Of a stretch of 64,000 nt of DNA, positions 2,456 to 10,247 are shown piece after piece. Location of the stretch: NCBI RefSeq assembly GCF_000832065.1, contig NZ_JXQM01000021.1:124001-188000 (forward strand), read 5' to 3'. This stretch comes from Nitrosospira sp. NpAV (GTDB taxonomy: Bacteria; Pseudomonadota; Gammaproteobacteria; Burkholderiales; Nitrosomonadaceae). Position numbers and translations under genes: made by a program. Position 1 is the first letter of the stretch; every line of letters begins with the position of its first letter. The notes beneath the pieces are model-generated. The model was not told the DNA's origin, ran no database searches, and worked only from the letters and a program-made list of their open reading frames with translations.

Positions 2456-4255
2456 ATGGCCTGCAAGGATAATAGCTCCGCCAATGCCAATGCAGCTCGT
2501 CACGCCGCAGGAACGTCTGCGGGCGCGGAGCAGGCGCTGCGCGAGCGTCTGAAGGAAATCACCTGTCTCTACGAGATTCGCCGTGGCATGGGGCTGGAGT
2601 TACCGGTGGATAATGTCTGCCAGCAGATCTTTGAGCACCTGATACCCGCCATGCAATTCCCCGAAATTGCCACTGCCATGATTGAACTCGACGGCAGACG
2701 CTTTACCTCCGAGAATCATGGCCAGGGCTTGACGCACGAGCTGCAGTCGAAGATCAGCGCCAACAGCGAATTTCGCGGCCAGTTGCGCGTGTTCTATCCA
2801 GAGGACAAACCCTTTCTGATACCGGAAGAGCAGCACCTCATCGATGCTGTCGCGAGCGATCTGGCGCGATGGCTCGAGCGCAAACAGATTGATGAAACGC
2901 TGCGCGAGCGTCTAAAGGAAATTACCTGTCTCTATGAGATTCGCCGTGGCATGGGACTGGAATTATCGGTGAACAGCGTCTGCCAGAGCATTTTTGAGCA
3001 CCTGATACCCGCCATGCAATTCCCCGAAATTGCCACCGCCGTGATCGAGCTCGATGGCAGGCGCTTCACCTCCGAGAATCATGGCCAGGGCCTGACGCAC
3101 GAGCTGCAGTCCAAGCTTAGCGCCAACAATAAGCCCTGCGGCCAGTTGCGCGTGTTCTATCCTGAAGACAAACCGTTCCTGATACCGGAAGAGCAGCGGC
3201 TCATCGATGCCGTCGCGAGTGATCTGGAGCGATGGTTTGAGCGCAAACAGATCGATGAGGCGCTGCATGAACGTCTAAAGGAAATCACCTGTCTCTATGA
3301 GATTCGCCGTGGCATGGGGCTAGAGCTATCGGTGGAAGCCGCCTGTCAGCATATTTTCGAGTACCTGATACCGGCCATGCAATTCCCTGAAATTGCCACT
3401 GCCATGATCGAGCTCGACAACAGGCGCTTTTCCTCCGAGAACCATGGCCAAGGCCTTACGCACGAGCTGCAGTCGAAGATTAGCGCCAATAATAGGCTCT
3501 GCGGCCAATTGCGTGTGTTCTATCCCGAAGACAAGCCGTTTCTGGTGCCCGAAGAGCAGCGGCTCATCGATGCCGTCGCGAGCGATCTGGAGGGATGGCT
3601 CGAACGCAAACGCCTGGAACAAGCTCTGATTTCCATCGCGGAAGAGCAGCAGCGGTTGATCGGGCAGGAGTTGCACGATAATCTCGGGCAGCAAATTGCG
3701 GCGATCAGCTATCAAGCCAAGGCGCTGGAGAAAAAAATATCTGCATCGGCCTGTGGGGATGCGGCAACGGTCGCCGCATCCATCGCGACACAAGCGCAGG
3801 TCGCCGTAATGCAATGCAAGCAGATCGCACAAGGGTTGCTTCCGTTTGAGCTGGAGACCAATGGCCTGACGGCTGCATTGCGGGCATTTGCATCGAGAAT
3901 CGCAATCACGTATAAAATTACCTGCGATTTTGTATACGAAAACGAAATCCTCATCAAGGATAAGGAGTCTGCGCTCAATCTTTACCGGATTGCTCAGGAA
4001 GCCACCAACAATGCGATACGCCACGGCGGCGCGCAACATGTGACTATCTCGCTGGCCACCGAGGGAGAAATGCTCCACCTATCGATACGCGATAATGGCA
4101 GCGGCTTCGCCGGTACCGATATAAAACACGAAGTGACACCCGGGATGGGCATTAAAATCATGCAATACCGTGCCAGGCAACTCGGTGCGACGCTGGAATT
4201 CCTGTCGCGTGCGGAAGGGGGAGTGGAAGTGCGGCTGGAAATGCGAATGGCTTAG
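2456..4255 (+). CDS. NarX/UhpB-type sensor histidine kinase with triplicated sensor module
   Basis: A 599-residue soluble sensor kinase with no membrane segment. Residues 28-390 are three tandem copies of a 121-residue module (RLKEITCLYEIRRGMGLEL ... RVFYPEDKPFLIPEEQ) resembling a small GAF-like domain. A HisKA_3 dimerisation domain follows, with QELHDNLGQQ and phospho-acceptor His407. The HATPase domain ends it, showing EATNNAIRHG and DNGSGF motifs. It should autophosphorylate and pass the phosphate to the NarL-type regulator 12 bp downstream. The modules are nearly identical in DNA as well as protein, which points to recent duplication or gene conversion. The ligand is unknown. Confidence 0.9.
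   Translation: MACKDNSSANANAARHAAGTSAGAEQALRERLKEITCLYEIRRGMGLELPVDNVCQQIFEHLIPAMQFPEIATAMIELDGRRFTSENHGQGLTHELQSKISANSEFRGQLRVFYPEDKPFLIPEEQHLIDAVASDLARWLERKQIDETLRERLKEITCLYEIRRGMGLELSVNSVCQSIFEHLIPAMQFPEIATAVIELDGRRFTSENHGQGLTHELQSKLSANNKPCGQLRVFYPEDKPFLIPEEQRLIDAVASDLERWFERKQIDEALHERLKEITCLYEIRRGMGLELSVEAACQHIFEYLIPAMQFPEIATAMIELDNRRFSSENHGQGLTHELQSKISANNRLCGQLRVFYPEDKPFLVPEEQRLIDAVASDLEGWLERKRLEQALISIAEEQQRLIGQELHDNLGQQIAAISYQAKALEKKISASACGDAATVAASIATQAQVAVMQCKQIAQGLLPFELETNGLTAALRAFASRIAITYKITCDFVYENEILIKDKESALNLYRIAQEATNNAIRHGGAQHVTISLATEGEMLHLSIRDNGSGFAGTDIKHEVTPGMGIKIMQYRARQLGATLEFLSRAEGGVEVRLEMRMA
2537..3625 (+). repeat. Three tandem 363-bp coding repeats
   Basis: Copies begin at 2537, 2900 and 3263, giving an exact period of 363 bp (121 codons) inside the kinase gene. 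Most differences are third-position changes. The block preserves the reading frame, so copy number could change by recombination without breaking the kinase. Confidence 0.9.
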
Positions 4256-4267
4256 GAGTCTCCGAAT

Positions 4268-4924
4268 ATGTCAGTCTTGAAAGCGCAAGTAATGCTGGTG
4301 GACGATCATGCCATGTTGCGGCATGGCATGGCGATGCTCATCAATCTTGAGCCGGATATGGAGGTATTTGCCGAGGCCGGCGATGGCGACGAAGCGCTGG
4401 CCATACTCAAAGCGGGACATCAAGCCGATATCGTTTTGATGGATGTGTCTCTCAAGACCCTTTCCGGTTTTGAGGTCATAAAAAGCATGCATAATCTGAT
4501 TTCCACACTTCCCGTACTCGTCGTTTCCATGCATGACGAAGGCGCATATGCGGAACGCGCTTTACGGGCCGGTGCGCGGGGCTATGTGATGAAGCAGGAG
4601 CCGGGTGATGTACTGGTGACCGCTATCCGCGAGGTATTAAAGGGAAACGTTTATCTAAGCAAGCAGATGCATGCCCGGCTCCTGAATCGGGTCGTGACCG
4701 GAAATTCTGAGCCTGAGCCGTTGATCAACAGTTTGACGCCCAGTGAGTTCGAAGTGTTGCACTTGATAGGATCCGGGCATAGCAGTCAGGAAATTGCCAA
4801 GTTACTCAACCGCAGTATTAAAACTATCGAAACGCATCGTTTCAACATTCGCACCAAGCTGAATTTGAGAGACGGCGCCGATTTGATACGTTATGCCACC
4901 CACTGGATTTCGGAAGCGCAATAG
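4268..4924 (+). CDS. NarL/FixJ-family response regulator
   Basis: A 218-residue regulator. The receiver domain (about 6-122) shows the acidic pair VDDH, phospho-acceptor Asp59 in IVLMDVS and the conserved Lys109 in GYVMKQ. The LuxR-type HTH (about 150-210) contains LTPSEFEVLHLI and IAKLLNRSIKTIETH. It lies 12 bp after the kinase gene and is surely its cognate partner. LuxR-type outputs bind short dyads; the GGGTTTCCC dyad module beginning 150 bp downstream is a candidate target, but that is inference from proximity alone. Confidence 0.92.
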   Translation: MSVLKAQVMLVDDHAMLRHGMAMLINLEPDMEVFAEAGDGDEALAILKAGHQADIVLMDVSLKTLSGFEVIKSMHNLISTLPVLVVSMHDEGAYAERALRAGARGYVMKQEPGDVLVTAIREVLKGNVYLSKQMHARLLNRVVTGNSEPEPLINSLTPSEFEVLHLIGSGHSSQEIAKLLNRSIKTIETHRFNIRTKLNLRDGADLIRYATHWISEAQ

Positions 4925-5075: not shown

Positions 5076-5115
5076 CTAAGGGTTTCCCTTAGTATAAAAC
5101 CAGGGTTTCCCCAAT
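5076..5115 (+). promoter_or_regulatory. GGGTTTCCC dyad module, copy 1
   Basis: A perfect dyad CTAAGGGTTTCCCTTAG (5076-5092) is followed 11 bp later by a second GGGTTTCCCC box (5103-5112). TATACT just downstream is a plausible -10. The same 40-bp arrangement recurs at 8286-8325 and 10208-10247, in the same orientation towards genes of the same family. This strongly suggests a shared activator or repressor site upstream of the promoter. Confidence 0.75.
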
Positions 5116-5176
5116 ATACTCAATAGCATGGACCGAGCTAGGATGGGCTTGCCGTCATTCTATATGGGTTGCTACC

Positions 5177-5635
5177 ATGAAGACAAAATTGGGAACATTT
5201 GTTGCGGTCCTCTCCATGCTTGGTCTATTAGCGTCCTGTGCGCAAACGGGGCCTCTCGAAAAACAGAGTGATGATATTCACAAGGCTGCGCAGAATGCCA
5301 GAACCTATGCCGACCATGAAAAATTGGCAAAGCAATATGCAAATACGGCCAAAGAAATACAGATAAAAGCGGAAGAGCAAAAGAAACTGCTTCAGCACTA
5401 TGAAGAAAAAGGCTATCTCTACGGTAGACAGGCGCAAGATATCCAATCACGCACCTGGGCCTTGCTGAACAAATATGAGCAAGCCGCGGAGGAAAACATA
5501 CATCAGGCTGCTTTTCACCAGAGAATGGCATCGGAGCTTGCGAAGCGTGATTATGCCACTCCAGCGGAAACACCGAGCCAGCGGAATCGGGAAAACAAGG
5601 CCAAGATCGGATCAGATCCCAAAGACCGGATTTAA
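5177..5635 (+). CDS. Small helical lipoprotein, divergent member of the local paralogue family
   Basis: A 152-residue protein with a lipoprotein signal peptide: MKTK, a hydrophobic run, then lipobox LLASC with Cys21. The mature part is rich in Ala, Glu, Gln and Lys and predicted helical. The segment HYEEKGYLYGRQAQD followed by LLNKYEQAAEENIHQAA matches the proteins at 7681-8103, 8927-9355 and 9598-10023. It is therefore the lipid-anchored cousin of those secreted proteins. It sits behind the same GGGTTTCCC module but lacks the 19-bp repeats. No Pfam name comes to mind, and the role (envelope or periplasmic) is inferred from targeting only. Confidence 0.8.
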   Translation: MKTKLGTFVAVLSMLGLLASCAQTGPLEKQSDDIHKAAQNARTYADHEKLAKQYANTAKEIQIKAEEQKKLLQHYEEKGYLYGRQAQDIQSRTWALLNKYEQAAEENIHQAAFHQRMASELAKRDYATPAETPSQRNRENKAKIGSDPKDRI

Positions 5636-5637
5636 TC

Positions 5638-6021
5638 TCATTCGGCGATTGACCGCCATGACCATGACAGAAGTTTTCTATTTTCTGGATTGAGTCGGTG
5701 TCGCGAGTGCGACAGCTTGAGTGTCACGACACCTACGACAATCAGCGCAACACCCATGTACCTGGCGAATGACGCCGGATCGCCGTAATACAGTATGCCA
5801 ACCAGGAACGCTCCCGCAGCGCCGATACCCGTCCAGACCGCATAGGCGGTTCCAATCGGGATGTGGCGCTGGGCAAGCCACAGCAAGAAGCCGCTGACAC
5901 ACATGAACCCAATAGCCACGGCGATCCCGGTCCAGCGCGTCTACGGTTCTTGGGCCATCTTCAGGCCGACTGGCCAGCTAATCTCAAAAAGGCCGGCGAG
6001 AACGAGGTACACCCAACTCAT
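5638..6021 (-). pseudogene. SMR-family transporter (SugE/Gdx-like) interrupted by an amber codon
   Basis: On the minus strand an ATG at 6021 opens MSWVYLVLAGLFEISWPVGL, a typical first SMR helix with the essential Glu13. Codon 27 is TAG (5943-5941). The same frame then continues through helices 2-4, including IPIGTAYAVWTGIGAAGAF and ALIVVGVVTLKLS, diagnostic of SugE/Gdx guanidinium exporters. An internal ATG at 5919 would give a 93-residue product lacking the glutamate helix, hence non-functional. The C-terminus is also longer than the usual 105 residues. A sequencing error or suppression of TAG cannot be excluded. Confidence 0.8.
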
Positions 6022-6197
6022 CTGTTCTTATCCTATCTTCTGGCAGGTGACGACTTCGGGAGGACGGGAGGACAGTTCAATGTATCCAAACTTTCTACCG
6101 AAATCGTTAGATTCATAGATCAGGATGTGCGATCTCGCATTCACCGTCGGTATTAACAAATAACTTGATAACTCCCTTATTTACAAACGAACGCCTA

Positions 6198-7469
6198 TTA
6201 TACGCTTCGAGGTGTTCCTTCTTCATTTCCTACAACCGCATCGATTTGGACCAAAGCATCATTAAGTAAAGCCGATACGCCAATTATTCTTCGTGCAGGA
6301 ACACCGCCTGGGAAGAATATTGCGTAAGCTTCATCTACAGCATCGATATCCGCGATATTTTTAAGAGCGATATTTATTTTGACTACATCGGCCATATCGT
6401 GGCCGATACTTTCTAAAATCGCCTTGATATTTTTTAAGCACTGGCCAGCCTGCTCTTTTACACCGCCAGCTACCATTTTTCCAGATTTTGGATCGATACC
6501 TGATTGAGCGGAAATATGGTTGTAATGAGAAAAAGCTACCGTTTGTGTAGATAGAGAACTTTTTGGTGCATTATCCGTATTGTTCGCTTCTATGATAATT
6601 CCATGCCTGTCTTCGACAGCTTGTGGGGGTGTGCCGTCTCCGTGCGACACAACTGCTTCAATTTGTACCAAAGCATGCATGGGTAAAGCTGCAACTTCAA
6701 CTATTGTCCGTGCAGGAAAATAGCCTACGGCCCTGGCGATACCCGAGTCCGGGAAAAATGTTTTATAAACTTCGTTTACAGCTTCAATATCCGAAAGGTT
6801 TTTAAGGAATACTGTGATTCTGACAATATCGTCAAAAGGAACATCGATACTTTCTAGAATTGCCTTGATATTTTTTAAGCACTGTCTAGCCTGCTCTTTT
6901 ACACCACCCGCTACAATTATTCCGGATTTTGGATCAATAGGTAATTGAGCTGAAATATTATTGTAGTGAGAAAAAGCCACTGTTTGGGTAGAGAGAGAAT
7001 TTTTTGGTGCATTCTCCGTATTATTTGTAAGTTTTATGAGGTCGCCTGCCTGCGGTGCGTTTGGAATTGAGCCTACACCGTTTGAAACAAGTGCTTCAAC
7101 TTGTACCAAAGCATCCATAGGTAAAGCTGCAACTGCGACTGTCGTCCGTGTAGGAACATAGGTCGGGAAGAATGTTTTATAAACTTCGTCTACAGCGTCA
7201 ACATCTGAGATATTCTTAACGAATACAGTGATTCTAATAACATCGCTCATAGCATGATCGATGCTTTCTACGATTGCCTTGATATTTTTAAAGCACTGTC
7301 CAGCCTGCTCTTTTACACCACCCGCTACTATTTCACCAGATTTTGGATCGATAGGTAGTTGAGCTGAAAGATTGTTGTAATGAGAGAAAGCTACAGTTTG
7401 TGAACATGGACCTAATCCTTTTGGAGCATTATTGGTATTTCTTGCTAATACAGCATTATAGCCACTCAT
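6198..7469 (-). CDS. Three fused RidA/YjgF-type domains
   Basis: A 423-residue cytoplasmic protein of three similar modules, at about 1-130, 145-280 and 295-420. Each carries TVAFSHYN, IVAGGVKEQA and a C-terminal strand containing the RidA active-site arginine (VPTRTTV, FPARTIV, VPARRII). The glutamate that follows in RidA is E in domains 1 and 2 but D in domain 3. RidA proteins are homotrimers with active sites at subunit interfaces that deaminate reactive enamines, so this looks like a single-chain trimer. The leader contains the same 19-bp repeats as the neighbouring exported-protein genes. It probably shares a transcript with the gene at 7681-8103. Confidence 0.85.
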   Translation of the reverse strand: MSGYNAVLARNTNNAPKGLGPCSQTVAFSHYNNLSAQLPIDPKSGEIVAGGVKEQAGQCFKNIKAIVESIDHAMSDVIRITVFVKNISDVDAVDEVYKTFFPTYVPTRTTVAVAALPMDALVQVEALVSNGVGSIPNAPQAGDLIKLTNNTENAPKNSLSTQTVAFSHYNNISAQLPIDPKSGIIVAGGVKEQARQCLKNIKAILESIDVPFDDIVRITVFLKNLSDIEAVNEVYKTFFPDSGIARAVGYFPARTIVEVAALPMHALVQIEAVVSHGDGTPPQAVEDRHGIIIEANNTDNAPKSSLSTQTVAFSHYNHISAQSGIDPKSGKMVAGGVKEQAGQCLKNIKAILESIGHDMADVVKINIALKNIADIDAVDEAYAIFFPGGVPARRIIGVSALLNDALVQIDAVVGNEEGTPRSV

Positions 7470-7503
7470 GATATTTCTCTTTTTCAGTTATAACTTAAAT
7501 ATC

Positions 7504-7621
7504 GGACAGATAGTCCGAGTCCTTTTTGCTACGGACGAATGGTCAGAGTCCTGAGATAAACCGGCATTACGCCGACGGACAAGGTATTCAGAGTCCTGCT
7601 ACGGACGGGTGGTCAGAGTCC
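7504..7621 (-). repeat. 19-bp GGAC...GTCC repeat array A (4 copies)
   Basis: Copies at 7504-7522, 7533-7551, 7577-7596 and 7603-7621 follow the plus-strand consensus GGACGGATGGTCAGAGTCC. The third is a 20-bp variant. The array fills the spacer between the 7681-8103 gene and the triple RidA gene, so it would be transcribed as a leader for the latter. Spacers are 7-25 bp and irregular. Confidence 0.85.
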
Positions 7622-7628
7622 TGAGATA

Positions 7629-7666
7629 GCAGGCAAATCCCCTGGTGCATCCGAGTTTGCCTTGCC
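7629..7666 (-). other. Hairpin after stop codon of the 7681-8103 gene
   Basis: On the transcribed strand GGCAAACTC ... GATTTGCC forms a stem 15-50 nt past the stop codon, with no T-run. Similar hairpins follow the paralogues (9543-9584, and around 8888-8915). They may protect 3' ends or cause partial termination ahead of the downstream gene. Confidence 0.5.
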
Positions 7667-7680
7667 AAATATGGATTGTA

Positions 7681-8103
7681 TCAGTTATTTCCTATCTGGG
7701 GCGTTTCGCCGTCACGAATCACGGTAGACCCAACTTGCCGCTGCGCCATTTGGCGATGGGCAACAGCTTCCTTCATGTTTGAGCGCGCAGCTTGCTCATA
7801 TTTGCGTATCAATGCCGTGGTCTGCGATTTCAGGGTTTGGGCTTCCCTGCCATACAGTTGCCCATCATACTGTTCAAGCAGTTTCTTCTGCTCATCTGCC
7901 TTGGCCTGCATTTCCCTGGCGGCATCTTCAAAGCGTTTCGCCAAAACACTATGCTGGTTAGAGGAGTCTACAGATTGAATGGCTGATTGATCAGGAAGGC
8001 TTTCTGCTTTAACGGTGCCCATGGGGCCACCGACAACCAACAAGCCAAGCAGGGAGAAAATTGCGAAAGTATCTTTTACTTTTGTGCCGAGTGTCGTTGC
8101 CAT
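7681..8103 (-). CDS. Small secreted helical protein, paralogue 1
   Basis: 140 residues. A Sec signal peptide (MATTLGTKVKD, hydrophobic core, cleavage near TVKA|ES) precedes a mature helical domain rich in Ala, Gln, Lys and Glu. The core REMQAKADEQKKLLEQY then LYGREAQTLKSQ and ALIRKYEQAARSNMKEAVAH is shared with the genes at 8927-9355 and 9598-10023, and more distantly with 5177-5635. The start is fixed by AGGAG 9 bp upstream, conserved in all three. The upstream leader contains a dyad, three 19-bp repeats and the GGGTTTCCC module. No known family is recognised; periplasmic or extracellular location follows from the signal peptide. Confidence 0.85.
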   Translation of the reverse strand: MATTLGTKVKDTFAIFSLLGLLVVGGPMGTVKAESLPDQSAIQSVDSSNQHSVLAKRFEDAAREMQAKADEQKKLLEQYDGQLYGREAQTLKSQTTALIRKYEQAARSNMKEAVAHRQMAQRQVGSTVIRDGETPQIGNN

Positions 8104-8121
8104 TTTGATTCTCCTGTTCCA

Positions 8122-8136
8122 ATTGATTAGATCAAT
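8122..8136 (-). promoter_or_regulatory. Leader dyad ATTGATTAGATCAAT
   Basis: A perfect inverted repeat with 6-bp arms and a 3-bp spacer, 18 bp upstream of the start codon. Identical copies lie at 9374-9388 and 10042-10056 in the same position relative to the paralogues. It overlaps the region just 5' of the AGGAG site, so it could be an operator or a small RNA stem. Confidence 0.55.
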
Positions 8137-8139
8137 ATC

Positions 8140-8211
8140 GGACGGATGGTCAGAGTCCTTTTTTTCTGGACGAATGGTCAGAGTCCCACACTGGACGGAT
8201 GGTCAGAGTCC
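8140..8211 (-). repeat. 19-bp repeat array B (3 copies)
   Basis: Copies at 8140-8158, 8168-8186 and 8193-8211, matching GGACGGATGGTCAGAGTCC exactly or with one change. They sit between the leader dyad and the GGGTTTCCC module of the 7681-8103 gene. Array D in front of the 9598-10023 gene is almost identical. Confidence 0.85.
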
Positions 8212-8285
8212 TTGCGACCTCCTGAAAAAGATGCTCAGAATCTCAGGAAGTGAATTCATATTAAATCCCTCACTTTAAAAATGGT

Positions 8286-8325
8286 ATTGGGGAAACCCTG
8301 ATTTTGTACTAAGGGAAACCCTTAG
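8286..8325 (-). promoter_or_regulatory. GGGTTTCCC dyad module, copy 2
   Basis: On the minus strand, CTAAGGGTTTCCCTTAG (8325-8309) is followed by a second GGGTTTCCCC box (8289-8299), the same spacing as copies 1 and 3. It lies about 185 bp upstream of the 7681-8103 start codon and is taken as that gene's upstream regulatory site. Confidence 0.75.
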
Positions 8326-8926
8326 ATTTTGATAATCTTCCTGCAATGTGCCGCGCTGGATCTTCATTTTGTGCGCTGTTTGCCGGGTCCGGAGCACCAC
8401 TTTACCGATGCGCCCGATTGCCTGTGATCGTCGAGACCGGTACGTGATATACAGGGCTTACAGTGTTGGCATATCAAAAGCAACGTTTCTACAGTTAAGG
8501 GGAAAGGTACGGCGACTTGGCGGCCGATGGGGTCAGGCAGTTACATCAGCTCAAGGAGAGGATGCCTGATTGAAGGGCATCTGAGAAAAAGATCTGATAC
8601 CAACTTGCTGCCGGAAGTTGTTCAATAGTCATCGACATATGCAAGGTGAGAGTTAAACGCGCGTGTCCGCTAACAATTTTTTGAGCAGGAGTTAATACCA
8701 CAAGAGTAGGACAGCAAATTGGATAAAATCCTTGCCGCTTGTTTCAAGAGATTGAAAGCAAGCGGCAAGATAGCACTCGAAACTAGATTCGATTAAGAAT
8801 GATTTTGCTTTGATTGTTCCAGACGACATCAGTCAGATTGGAATACCGTGTAATCATCTGAGCCGCGAGTCAGAGTCCAAGATGAAAGGCAAATCTGACT
8901 TCAGATCTGCCCTCTACAACTCTGCA
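8326..8926. other. Intergenic region with hairpins, no gene seen
   Basis: About 600 bp. No coding frame is convincing. A partial 19-bp repeat (GAGTCAGAGTCC, about 8867-8878) and a post-stop hairpin (GGGCAGATCTGA ... TCAGATTTGCC, minus strand, about 8889-8914) follow the gene at 8927-9355. A long stem-loop lies at 8731-8769. The remainder, 8340-8700, shows no recognisable feature. Confidence 0.45.
8731..8769 (-). terminator. Strong stem-loop, probable terminator
   Basis: CTTGCCGCTTG at 8731-8741 pairs with CAAGCGGCAAG at 8759-8769, and the inside extends with TTTCA/TGAAA, giving about 16 bp of stem. On the minus strand GATTTTATCC follows. It lies about 160 bp past the 8927-9355 stop codon and could end the transcript carrying the two upstream paralogues. 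Confidence 0.5.
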
Positions 8927-9355
8927 TCAGTTACTTTCTGCATGGGGCATTTGGCTGCCATGAATCGCGTAATTATGGTCAGGCTGCTGCGCCATTTGGC
9001 GATGAGCGATAGCTTCCTTCATGTTCGAGCGAGCGGCTTGCTCGTACTTCCGTATCAATGCTGAAGTGTGTGATTGCAAGTCTTGTGCCTGCTTGCCATA
9101 CAGATAGCTTTTGTCCTCGTAGTGTTCCAACAACTTTTTTTGCTCATCCGACTTTGCTTGCATTTGCCGGGCAGCATCTTCAAAGTCTTTTGCCAAAACG
9201 CTATGTTCGCTAGAGGATGCTACAAGCTGGATAGCAGATTGATCAGTAAGATTTTCTGCTTTTACCGTGTCTATCGGGGCGCCCACGGCCAATAAGCCAA
9301 GCAGGGATAAAATCGCAAAAGTATCTTTTGCTTTTATGCCGAGTGTCGTTGCCAT
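8927..9355 (-). CDS. Small secreted helical protein, paralogue 2
   Basis: 142 residues, about two thirds identical by eye to the proteins on either side. The signal peptide is MATTLGIKAKD with a hydrophobic core ending near TVKA|EN. The mature segment has ARQMQAKSDEQKKLLEHY, SYLYGKQAQDLQSH and ALIRKYEQAARSNMKEAIAH. The EDKSYLYG stretch is closest to the lipoprotein at 5177-5635, so it bridges the two subgroups. It has the AGGAG site and leader dyad but no GGGTTTCCC module of its own. It is probably transcribed from the promoter of the 9598-10023 gene through the repeat array between them. Function is unknown. Confidence 0.85.
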   Translation of the reverse strand: MATTLGIKAKDTFAILSLLGLLAVGAPIDTVKAENLTDQSAIQLVASSSEHSVLAKDFEDAARQMQAKSDEQKKLLEHYEDKSYLYGKQAQDLQSHTSALIRKYEQAARSNMKEAIAHRQMAQQPDHNYAIHGSQMPHAESN

Positions 9356-9391
9356 TTTGATTCTCCTGTTCCAATTGATTAGATCAATATC

Positions 9392-9537
9392 GGACGGATA
9401 GTCAGAGTCCTTTTTTGCTACCGGACGAATGGTCAGAGTCCTTACACTGGACGGATGGTCAGAGTCCTGAGATAAACCGGCATTGCGCCGACGGACAAGG
9501 TATTCAGAGTCCTGTTACGGACGGATGGTCAGAGTCC
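9392..9537 (-). repeat. 19-bp repeat array C (5 copies)
   Basis: Copies at 9392-9410, 9423-9441, 9449-9467, 9493-9512 (the 20-bp variant) and 9519-9537. The array fills the spacer between paralogues 3 and 2. Its right half matches array A closely, including the gataaaccggcattg linker, so the two spacers share an origin. Confidence 0.85.
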
Positions 9538-9542
9538 TGAGA

Positions 9543-9584
9543 TGGCAGGCAAATCCCCATGATGGATCCGAGTTTGCCCTGCCA
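9543..9584 (-). other. Hairpin after stop codon of the 9598-10023 gene
   Basis: TGGCAGGCAAA at 9543-9553 pairs with TTTGCCCTGCCA at 9573-9584 with one bulge, 14 nt past the stop codon. It has the same position and similar sequence to 7629-7666. There is no T-run, so full termination is unlikely. Confidence 0.55.
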
Positions 9585-9597
9585 GTATAAATCTGTA

Positions 9598-10023
9598 TCA
9601 GTTACTTCCTGTTTGGGGCGTTTCGCCGCCATGAATCACGTTAGATCCGAATTGCCGCTGCGCCATTTGGCGATGGGCGACAGCTTCCTTCATGTTTGAG
9701 CGTGCGGCTTGCTCATATTTGCGTATCAGCGCTGAAGCGTGTGATTTCAAATTATGAGATTGCCAGCCATACAGATGCATCTCCTCATACTGTTCAAGCA
9801 GTTTCTTCTGCTCATCCGCCTTGGCCTGCATTTCCCTGGCGGTATCTTCAAAGCGCTTCGCCAAAACACTATGCTCGTCAAGAGATATGACAACTTGAAC
9901 GGTAGATTGTTCAGGAAGATTTTCTGCTTTAACGGTGTTAAAGGCCGCGCCTACAACCAACAAGCCAAGCAGGGAGAAAATTGCGAAAGTATCTTTTGCT
10001 TTTATGCCGAGTGCCGTTGCCAT
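9598..10023 (-). CDS. Small secreted helical protein, paralogue 3
   Basis: 141 residues from the ATG at 10023, chosen because AGGAG precedes it and the start aligns with both paralogues. An upstream in-frame ATG at 10113 would translate the repeat array and is rejected. Signal peptide MATALGIKAKD with cleavage near TVKA|EN. The mature part carries REMQAKADEQKKLLEQYEE, HLYGWQSHNLKSH and ALIRKYEQAARSNMKEAVAH. It is the first gene behind a full leader (GGGTTTCCC module, array D, dyad) and probably drives 8927-9355 as well. Export is well supported; the molecular role is unknown. Confidence 0.85.
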   Translation of the reverse strand: MATALGIKAKDTFAIFSLLGLLVVGAAFNTVKAENLPEQSTVQVVISLDEHSVLAKRFEDTAREMQAKADEQKKLLEQYEEMHLYGWQSHNLKSHASALIRKYEQAARSNMKEAVAHRQMAQRQFGSNVIHGGETPQTGSN

Positions 10024-10059
10024 TTTGATTCTCCTGTTCCAATTGATTAGATCAATATC

Positions 10060-10133
10060 GGACGGATGGTCAGAGTCCTTTTTGCTGCCGGACGAATGGT
10101 CAGAGTCCCACACTGGACGGATGGTCAGAGTCC
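10060..10133 (-). repeat. 19-bp repeat array D (3 copies)
   Basis: Copies at 10060-10078, 10090-10108 and 10115-10133, in the leader of the 9598-10023 gene. Sequence and spacing are almost the same as array B, indicating that gene and leader were duplicated together. Confidence 0.85.
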
Positions 10134-10207
10134 TTGCGACTGCCTGAAAATGATGCTCAGAATCTCAGGAAGTGAGTTCATATTAAATCCCTCACTTTAA
10201 AAATGGT

Positions 10208-10247
10208 ATTGGGGAAACCCTGATTTTGGACTAAGGGAAACCCTTAG
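10208..10247 (-). promoter_or_regulatory. GGGTTTCCC dyad module, copy 3
   Basis: The dyad CTAAGGGTTTCCCTTAG at 10247-10231 (minus strand) plus a second GGGTTTCCCC box at 10220-10211. It faces the 9598-10023 gene and lies 80 bp beyond the end of the RND pump gene. Flanks resemble copy 2 for at least 30 bp on each side. Confidence 0.75.

Follow-up and report, generated by a model that had tools for sequence, protein, structure and literature searches.

Two-component systems of the NarL/FixJ class, among which UhpBA, NarXL and MctSR are the nearest NCBIfam names to the system described here, pair a histidine kinase with HisKA_3 and HATPase_c domains and a regulator with Response_reg and GerE domains, and have paired dyads upstream of the promoter. 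A system alike in these respects lies in the window, by which we mean the whole 64,000-nt stretch of Nitrosospira sp. NpAV that was analysed (positions 124001-188000 of contig C107 in a 3.45 Mb draft genome, G000). Its kinase (2456..4255, +) and its regulator (4268..4924, +) are directly upstream of a promoter module and of genes for small exported helical proteins, and most likely, judging from sequence, this is one two-component system dedicated to one expanded envelope-protein family. It differs from UhpBA, NarXL and MctSR in that the kinase appears soluble and has repeated GAF-like units, in that the targets found belong almost exclusively to one paralogous family, and in scores far below the MctS and MctR equivalog cut-offs (98.1 bits against 700 for the kinase and 148.6 against 300 for the regulator; NF052443 and NF052445). 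An earlier note on this DNA had proposed that the exported helical proteins form a co-regulated system, duplicated as gene plus leader, which our data support; it had not linked to it the two-component system, which is the key to the whole. Nitrosospira are major soil ammonia oxidisers, and a sensor system present in all 23 genomes of the genus examined and apparently devoted to an unnamed exported family (3-24 copies) points to an envelope response of these nitrifiers that has gone unrecognised. Since the binding site is predicted precisely and there are candidates for both regulator and sensor, this proposal can be tested directly.

From the sequences, their conservation, synteny and co-occurrence we infer the following explanation, to which we give as a whole a probability of about 0.6. 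The soluble kinase with tandem GAF-like units would phosphorylate the NarL-type regulator, which would then bind a pair of AGGG-TTT-CCC dyads lying 23 bp from each other. By their spacing these dyads would be near -43 and -66 of a promoter that has TAGGAT or TAATAT and no good -35 box, and the bound regulator would activate many copies of one exported two-helix hairpin family at once. The transcript of one subfamily would also bear 2-14 copies of a 19-nt repeat, and the 3' arm of the last repeat could pair with either of two partners, the 5' arm of that repeat and the ribosome-binding site, so that a bound protein or RNA would set translation. The hairpin proteins, finally, might stabilise the envelope or envelope proteins under the stress sensed by the kinase.

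The dyads almost certainly form a promoter module. The earlier note had reported three modules in the window, and all three were recovered far beyond chance: one of type A at 5076..5116 (+), followed by the -10-like hexamer TAGGAT at 5139..5144 (+), and two of type B at 8285..8325 (-) and 10207..10247 (-), followed by TAATAT at 8258..8263 (-) and 10180..10185 (-), respectively. The dyad sequence GGGTTTCCC occurs seven times in the window, six of them within the three module pairs, against 0.43 expected, and none of 100 shuffles reaches seven. To define the consensus, 66 distinct contexts with up to 5 mismatches were taken from loci gathered for modules or family genes, with identical 100-nt contexts merged; it reads AAGGGTTTCCCTTAG-N5-AANCAGGGTTTCCCCAAT, then a spacer to TAnnAT. 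The geometry is the same in 66/66 contexts, with the two dyads 23 bp apart and TAnnAT 22 nt (55 contexts) or 23 nt (11) further on, and the hexamer is TAGGAT in 50, TAATAT in 7 and another variant in 9. By a scripted check, an open reading frame (ORF) of the family follows in 63 of these contexts, the other three being the module of 7681-8103, where the stretch that was read ends, one at a contig end in G004 and the G017 site discussed below.

The earlier note had proposed looking for modules and repeats in other genomes, and we scanned for both in 61, of which 23 belong to the same genus, 14 to the same family and 24 to the same order. The module pattern, allowing ≤3 mismatches and taking no account of family genes (which did serve to build the protein profile used below), was found at 63 places in 26 genomes, namely 23/23 of the genus, 3/14 of the family and 0/24 of the order, and the reversed pattern, used as control, gave no match in any of the 61. 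At 61 of these places a family gene lies within 862 nt downstream; the remaining two belong to G004, each with a contig end 55 nt away, so that a family gene comes next in 61/61 places with readable downstream sequence. Furthermore, the own genome has ten proximal-dyad sites with ≤1 mismatch and TAnnAT at 22 nt, all of them at family promoters, and across the gathered loci, which are not a neutral sample, a family gene follows 54 of 55 distinct readable sites of this kind, with one exception in G022. A wider regulon of the module was considered and dropped, since such sites sit almost only at family promoters. Among the proximal-dyad sites with 2-3 mismatches, some of which were checked, one in G012 has no family gene nearby, and the remaining ones are probably due to chance. 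Also discarded was an upstream leader peptide starting in TTTAATATGA, because its ATG overlaps the aligned -10 element.

Concerning the two proteins, the domains are above the Pfam gathering score in both, with HisKA_3 (3.8e-07) and HATPase_c (2.6e-13) in the kinase and Response_reg (3.6e-24) and GerE (2.1e-13) in the NarL/FixJ-type regulator. No segment of the kinase is hydrophobic enough to span a membrane (best mean over 19 residues 1.13), and its sensor region (2540..3649, +) comprises three tandem units of ~121 aa each. One unit, at 2903-3286, models well (pTM 0.83); its top Foldseek match is DosP (E 1.9e-4, TM 0.65), and named GAF domains are among its best matches (Aquifex NLH1 and NLH2, Pseudomonas 3cit). 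The predicted model thus points to a GAF fold for the sensor units; none of 24 such units matched a Pfam GAF model at E≤1. The number and spacing of the units appear variable among genomes and duplicated kinases (window 2540-3649; L241, L242).

Several lines of evidence argue that the regulator at 4268-4924, proposed from synteny as the module activator, very probably binds the dyads. Its orthologue is present in 23/23 genus genomes with 81-100% identity, and in 17 of these a module and a family gene follow directly; in G003, G004 and G008 the module is on the contig of the regulator, about 1.5-7 kb off, and in G002 (80% complete), G017 and G018 no link between regulator and module was seen. 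Outside the genus, with a threshold of E≤1e-45, the regulator is found in 5 of the 14 other genomes of the family (G024, G029, G032, which is 82% complete, G033 and G036), and all five have modules before family genes, three of them at ≤3 mismatches. In G024 and G033 the modules are degenerate, with 4-9 mismatches in the 400 nt read before family genes, and in G036 they are not adjacent to the regulator; modules with more than 3 mismatches were searched for in the vicinity of family genes and regulators. The nine sister genomes without the regulator have no module at ≤3 mismatches, and three of them, G023, G026 and G035 (89% complete), have family genes whose best module fit shows 17-18 mismatches of 32 fixed positions, a level similar to that of module-free family copies in regulator-bearing genomes (14-18). 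It is because the regulator adjoins a module-driven gene, because modules accompany it in sister genera and because these three regulator-less genomes have family genes without module that we favour a dedicated system.

The dyads could instead be bound by another conserved regulator, the neighbouring two-component system merely travelling with one family gene. There are many regulators of the NarL/FixJ class, with 16-54 first-look candidates in each genus genome, this one adjoins only one module in most genomes, the module is not directly after it in 6 of the 23 genus genomes, and in G036 the nearest module at ≤3 mismatches is about 35 kb away. Against this, modules in the other Nitrosomonadaceae examined occur only where this regulator orthologue does, and in G022, which has four regulator matches, the extra kinase-regulator copies are accompanied by four further modules (5-8 mismatches) at most a few kb away, with a family gene after three of the four. 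Paired dyads and their position also fit an activator of the NarL/FixJ class. We therefore regard binding by another regulator as improbable.

Other observations speak against a system dedicated to the family and should be kept in mind. The presence of regulator and module is strongly phylogenetic, since a single genus accounts for 23 of the 28 Nitrosomonadaceae with the regulator. Moreover, the weaker G017 module (4 mismatches) precedes a repeat array and amoC, not a family gene; a weaker G022 module (5 mismatches; L242, minus strand, near G022:C1:3310810) has no family gene after it and is followed by an apparently broken regulator fragment; and 13 of the 24 family copies in the own genome lack a module despite the regulator.

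The family itself is represented in the window by four paralogues, one a lipoprotein and three of Sec type, as the earlier note had stated. The lipoprotein (5177..5635, +; lipobox LLASC) is of the regulator-adjacent type, and the three Sec-exported members (7681..8103, 8927..9355 and 9598..10023, all -) are of MAT type and have no lipobox, these calls being a reading of the sequence alone. The gene at 8927-9355 has repeats without module and is probably the downstream gene of an operon. The expansion, which had been taken as local, extends to the whole genome, where tblastn finds the family at 24 places, three with an in-frame stop inside the match and one a 39-residue fragment. With a 40-row profile the count for this genome is again 24, and the 23 genus genomes have between 3 and 24 places each, the lowest number belonging to the incomplete G002. 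The profile matches in 31/37 Nitrosomonadaceae examined and, in a class-wide sample in which at most 12 candidates per genome were scored, in at least 6 of 321 genomes, the own one included. A lipobox motif is present in 43 of the 98 members with 115 aa or more and absent from the other 55.

The suggestion that the family and its leaders are undescribed has held up. None of the four members reached the cut-off of any Pfam or NCBIfam model, two members searched against PHROGs had nothing better than E 0.078, a search of the PDB sequences with the family profile gained nothing, and the literature, read as titles and starts of abstracts with subscription journals mostly outside reach, gave no description of the family, the module or the repeats. 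Modelled as a single chain, the protein encoded at 9598-10023 is predicted to form two antiparallel helices of 45 residues each (37-81 and 87-131), with a mean pLDDT of 77.1, 70 of 141 residues at 90 or more and a pTM of 0.58. Spy/CpxP and Skp are periplasmic chaperones under envelope-stress systems, small, exported and all-helical, and the present proteins resemble them in being small, exported and all-helical under what would be a stress two-component system. They differ from Spy/CpxP and Skp in being a predicted two-helix hairpin with up to 24 copies per genome and generic fold matches, and none of the four members scanned matched the Pfam models LTXXQ (Spy/CpxP) and OmpH (Skp) at E≤1. As for Lpp/OprI, the product of 5177-5635 is likewise a lipoprotein with Ala-rich helices, but its match to the alanine-zipper model NF040598 is weak (20.6 bits against a cut-off of 43), the other three members have none at E≤1, and more than half of the family lacks a lipobox.

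An envelope response is the best supported functional reading in view of the many exported copies, the one dedicated sensor and the RidA, universal stress protein (Usp) and amoC companions in a few genomes, and the proteins would be envelope hairpins that are induced by stress and have two near-invariant His. A chaperone-like, envelope-protective role is more tentative, and the structure searches count against it, since Foldseek gave no match at E ≤ 0.001 for the hairpin and its structure matches were generic helical ones, as were those of VIA-align, whose Z of 9-11 is in the range common for helical models. The family could otherwise bind periplasmic metal or haem, for example in the copper handling of ammonia oxidisers: His51 is kept in 98/98 members and His117 in 94/98, the two would lie opposite each other in the hairpin by helix register, and one amoC is in the same likely operon as a family gene. 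Yet these are just two near-invariant His, with no near-invariant Cys or Met in the family core, the pair is equally explicable as a buried structural pair, and the hairpin has no fold match at the above threshold to any protein. Such a binding role seems to us rather unlikely, a little more so than the chaperone-like one.

It might also be argued that gene amplification has left mostly decaying copies, which would retain the promoters they inherited but share no function. The in-frame stops and the fragment in the own genome, together with the range of copy number across the genus, agree with this, but the rigid promoter geometry, the genus-wide conservation of the core residues and the presence of the regulator with at least one module in all 23 genus genomes make it very unlikely. 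The genes that adjoin the regulator are lipoprotein genes in 15 of the 16 read, G014 being an exception whose start was probably set too far downstream, and they fall in one supported lineage of 22 rows, with five label changes required on the tree.

Control of the family is layered and non-uniform, because of the 24 copies in the own genome 11 come with a module, 9 with neither module nor repeats and 4 with repeats alone, of which three follow another family gene on their strand and one is at a contig end. By eye, five of the nine share a different upstream sequence around TTGACAAAGT that goes with a -10-like hexamer and is preceded in some by TTTAAACATAA (L034, C85:225134 and 226051; L040, C107:92278; L030, C13:18778; L042, C1:433105), and this may be a second kind of family promoter. 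Some contigs stop just after modules (L136, G004:C8; L123, G004:C32) or in a repeat array (L033, start of G000:C250), and copy numbers in draft genomes are therefore probably underestimated.

The repeats are a control layer separate from the dyads, with a different distribution, and they mark one subfamily. In this respect the single shared layered design of the earlier note does not hold, because the promoter is genus-wide and reaches some genomes of sister genera (26/61 genomes in all) whereas the 19-mer, scanned for at ≤2 mismatches, is in only 6/61, all Nitrosospira. The fifteen repeats counted before are, at ≤3 mismatches in the window, 13 copies of 19 nt (0.00 expected) and two 20-nt variants, all facing these genes. 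They form, on the minus strand, an array of four units before the RidA gene (7504..7621, with a 20-nt variant at 7577-7596), one of three units at 8140..8211, one of five at 9392..9537 (20-nt variant at 9493-9512) and one of three at 10060..10133. Over all genomes with repeats, arrays of 2-14 units precede family genes of MAT/MVT type, with one array cut by a contig end that shows a single unit. The last unit starts 48-62 nt before the ATG, mostly 55-57 (56 for one G012 gene). Arrays also stand before amoC genes in G000, G008 and G017, and a few in G000 and G012 stand before no nameable gene. That the repeats encode an N-terminal extension was considered and dropped, because the unit spacings are mostly not multiples of three.

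The three MAT-type genes share the conserved leader dyad TTGATctaATCAA before the ribosome-binding site, as had been noticed earlier, and hairpins from the 3' arm of the last repeat to that site are predicted at 8111..8146, 9363..9398 and 10031..10066 (all -). From 143 repeat-core matches 11 coding ones were set aside, and in 125 of the remaining 132 the outer arms are fully paired (four pairs, taking the better of two spacings), four of these units by the double change GGGC/GCCC; counted over all 143 cores, pairing covers 90% of the arm cells and drops to 11-45% once the 3' arm is shifted by 1-3. This supports an inverted repeat but fits RNA and DNA alike. Among 21 leaders, the fold predicted most often has the 3' arm of the last repeat base-paired to the ribosome-binding site; in 14 of 20 unique leaders that site is paired at a probability ≥0.5. 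We put an action of the repeats in RNA, affecting translation, at slightly short of even, because the leaders are related, the RidA leader and two amoC leaders do not favour the hairpin, full leaders fold like shuffles and the stem is invariant. Specifically, the folding of the linker is only mildly favoured (17/20 below the shuffle mean, mean z -0.94, with 300 shuffles each and related sequences), the hairpin is not favoured at the RidA, G008 amoC and G017 amoC leaders, the three full leader arrays of the window fold no better than shuffles (z 0.38, 0.19 and -0.03), and across the aligned leaders the stem of the last repeat gives no covariation, all of which tells against RNA control. The RidA leader folds only slightly better than its shuffles (z -1.25).

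An action of the 19-nt repeats in DNA, as operators or recombination sites, is nearly as credible. GGAC-N11-GTCC is also a DNA inverted repeat, the number of units varies from 2 to 14, the own-genome contigs C13 and C250 end inside arrays, as recombining repeats can cause, and the failure of the three whole leaders to fold better than shuffles points the same way. On the other hand, the arrays are strand-oriented at a near-fixed distance from the start codon in most MAT-type genes, the best conserved inner part, CTCTGA, is one-sided and not symmetric, and arrays also stand between genes of likely operons. A more specific version of the RNA reading, that the arrays are an undescribed leader class of tandem 19-nt hairpins (GGAC-loop-GUCC with conserved CUCUGA) whose last unit hides the ribosome-binding site, and on which a protein or RNA bound to the repeats would adjust translation according to the length of the array, atop the dedicated promoter, in some strains also for a spare AmoC subunit, is doubtful. 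None of 4227 Rfam families matches the window at gathering score. If the repeat leaders do act in RNA, their architecture would be new, with output possibly set by the number of repeat copies, and it would extend to an ammonia monooxygenase subunit.

The post-stop hairpins reported before proved uneven, with a strong one after 8927-9355 (8887..8913, -; z -4.3) and modest regions after 7681-8103 (7639..7667, -) and 9598-10023 (9556..9584, -), with z -1.8 and -1.6, and no clear T-run.

A passage in PMC5960693, citing Berube and Stahl (2012), states that AmoC is thought to stabilise ammonia monooxygenase under stress. As with the AmoC3 stress subunit of Nitrosomonas europaea, we found an amoC-type gene in a likely stress operon (G000; Pfam AmoC 9e-126), but here amoC has a repeat leader and is behind a family gene with module (G000), a degenerate module (G017) or repeats alone (G008). 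In a survey in which 22 of 23 amoC loci were evaluated, repeats were present only at the MSTAL/MSTTL-type genes of these three genomes, and a module directly before the gene (4 mismatches) only in G017, so that the module as a general control of amoC was dropped. The repeat-led amoC genes are read as standing alone; a test for an amoA neighbour was unreliable and was not used. G000 also has a broken amoC (L028:1202-1300) with a repeat-array leader, an in-frame stop after about 23 codons and then a truncation, followed by a universal stress protein gene (L028, 1483-1986).

The triple RidA-domain gene (6198..7469, -; Ribonuc_L-PSP, 1.8e-73, three stretches) had been placed under the same leader repeats. 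The repeats are indeed there, with no module, and the association looks local: the full-length gene is in only 3 of 41 genomes searched (G000, G012 and G017, with a diverged second copy in G012; L237, L238, L245), and no repeats were found in the stretches read around the G012 and G017 genes. Between the lipoprotein gene and RidA, the stretch 5638-5919 (-) matches only the C-terminal part of small multidrug resistance (SMR) transporters, from profile position 36 onwards, and looks like a truncated SMR gene.

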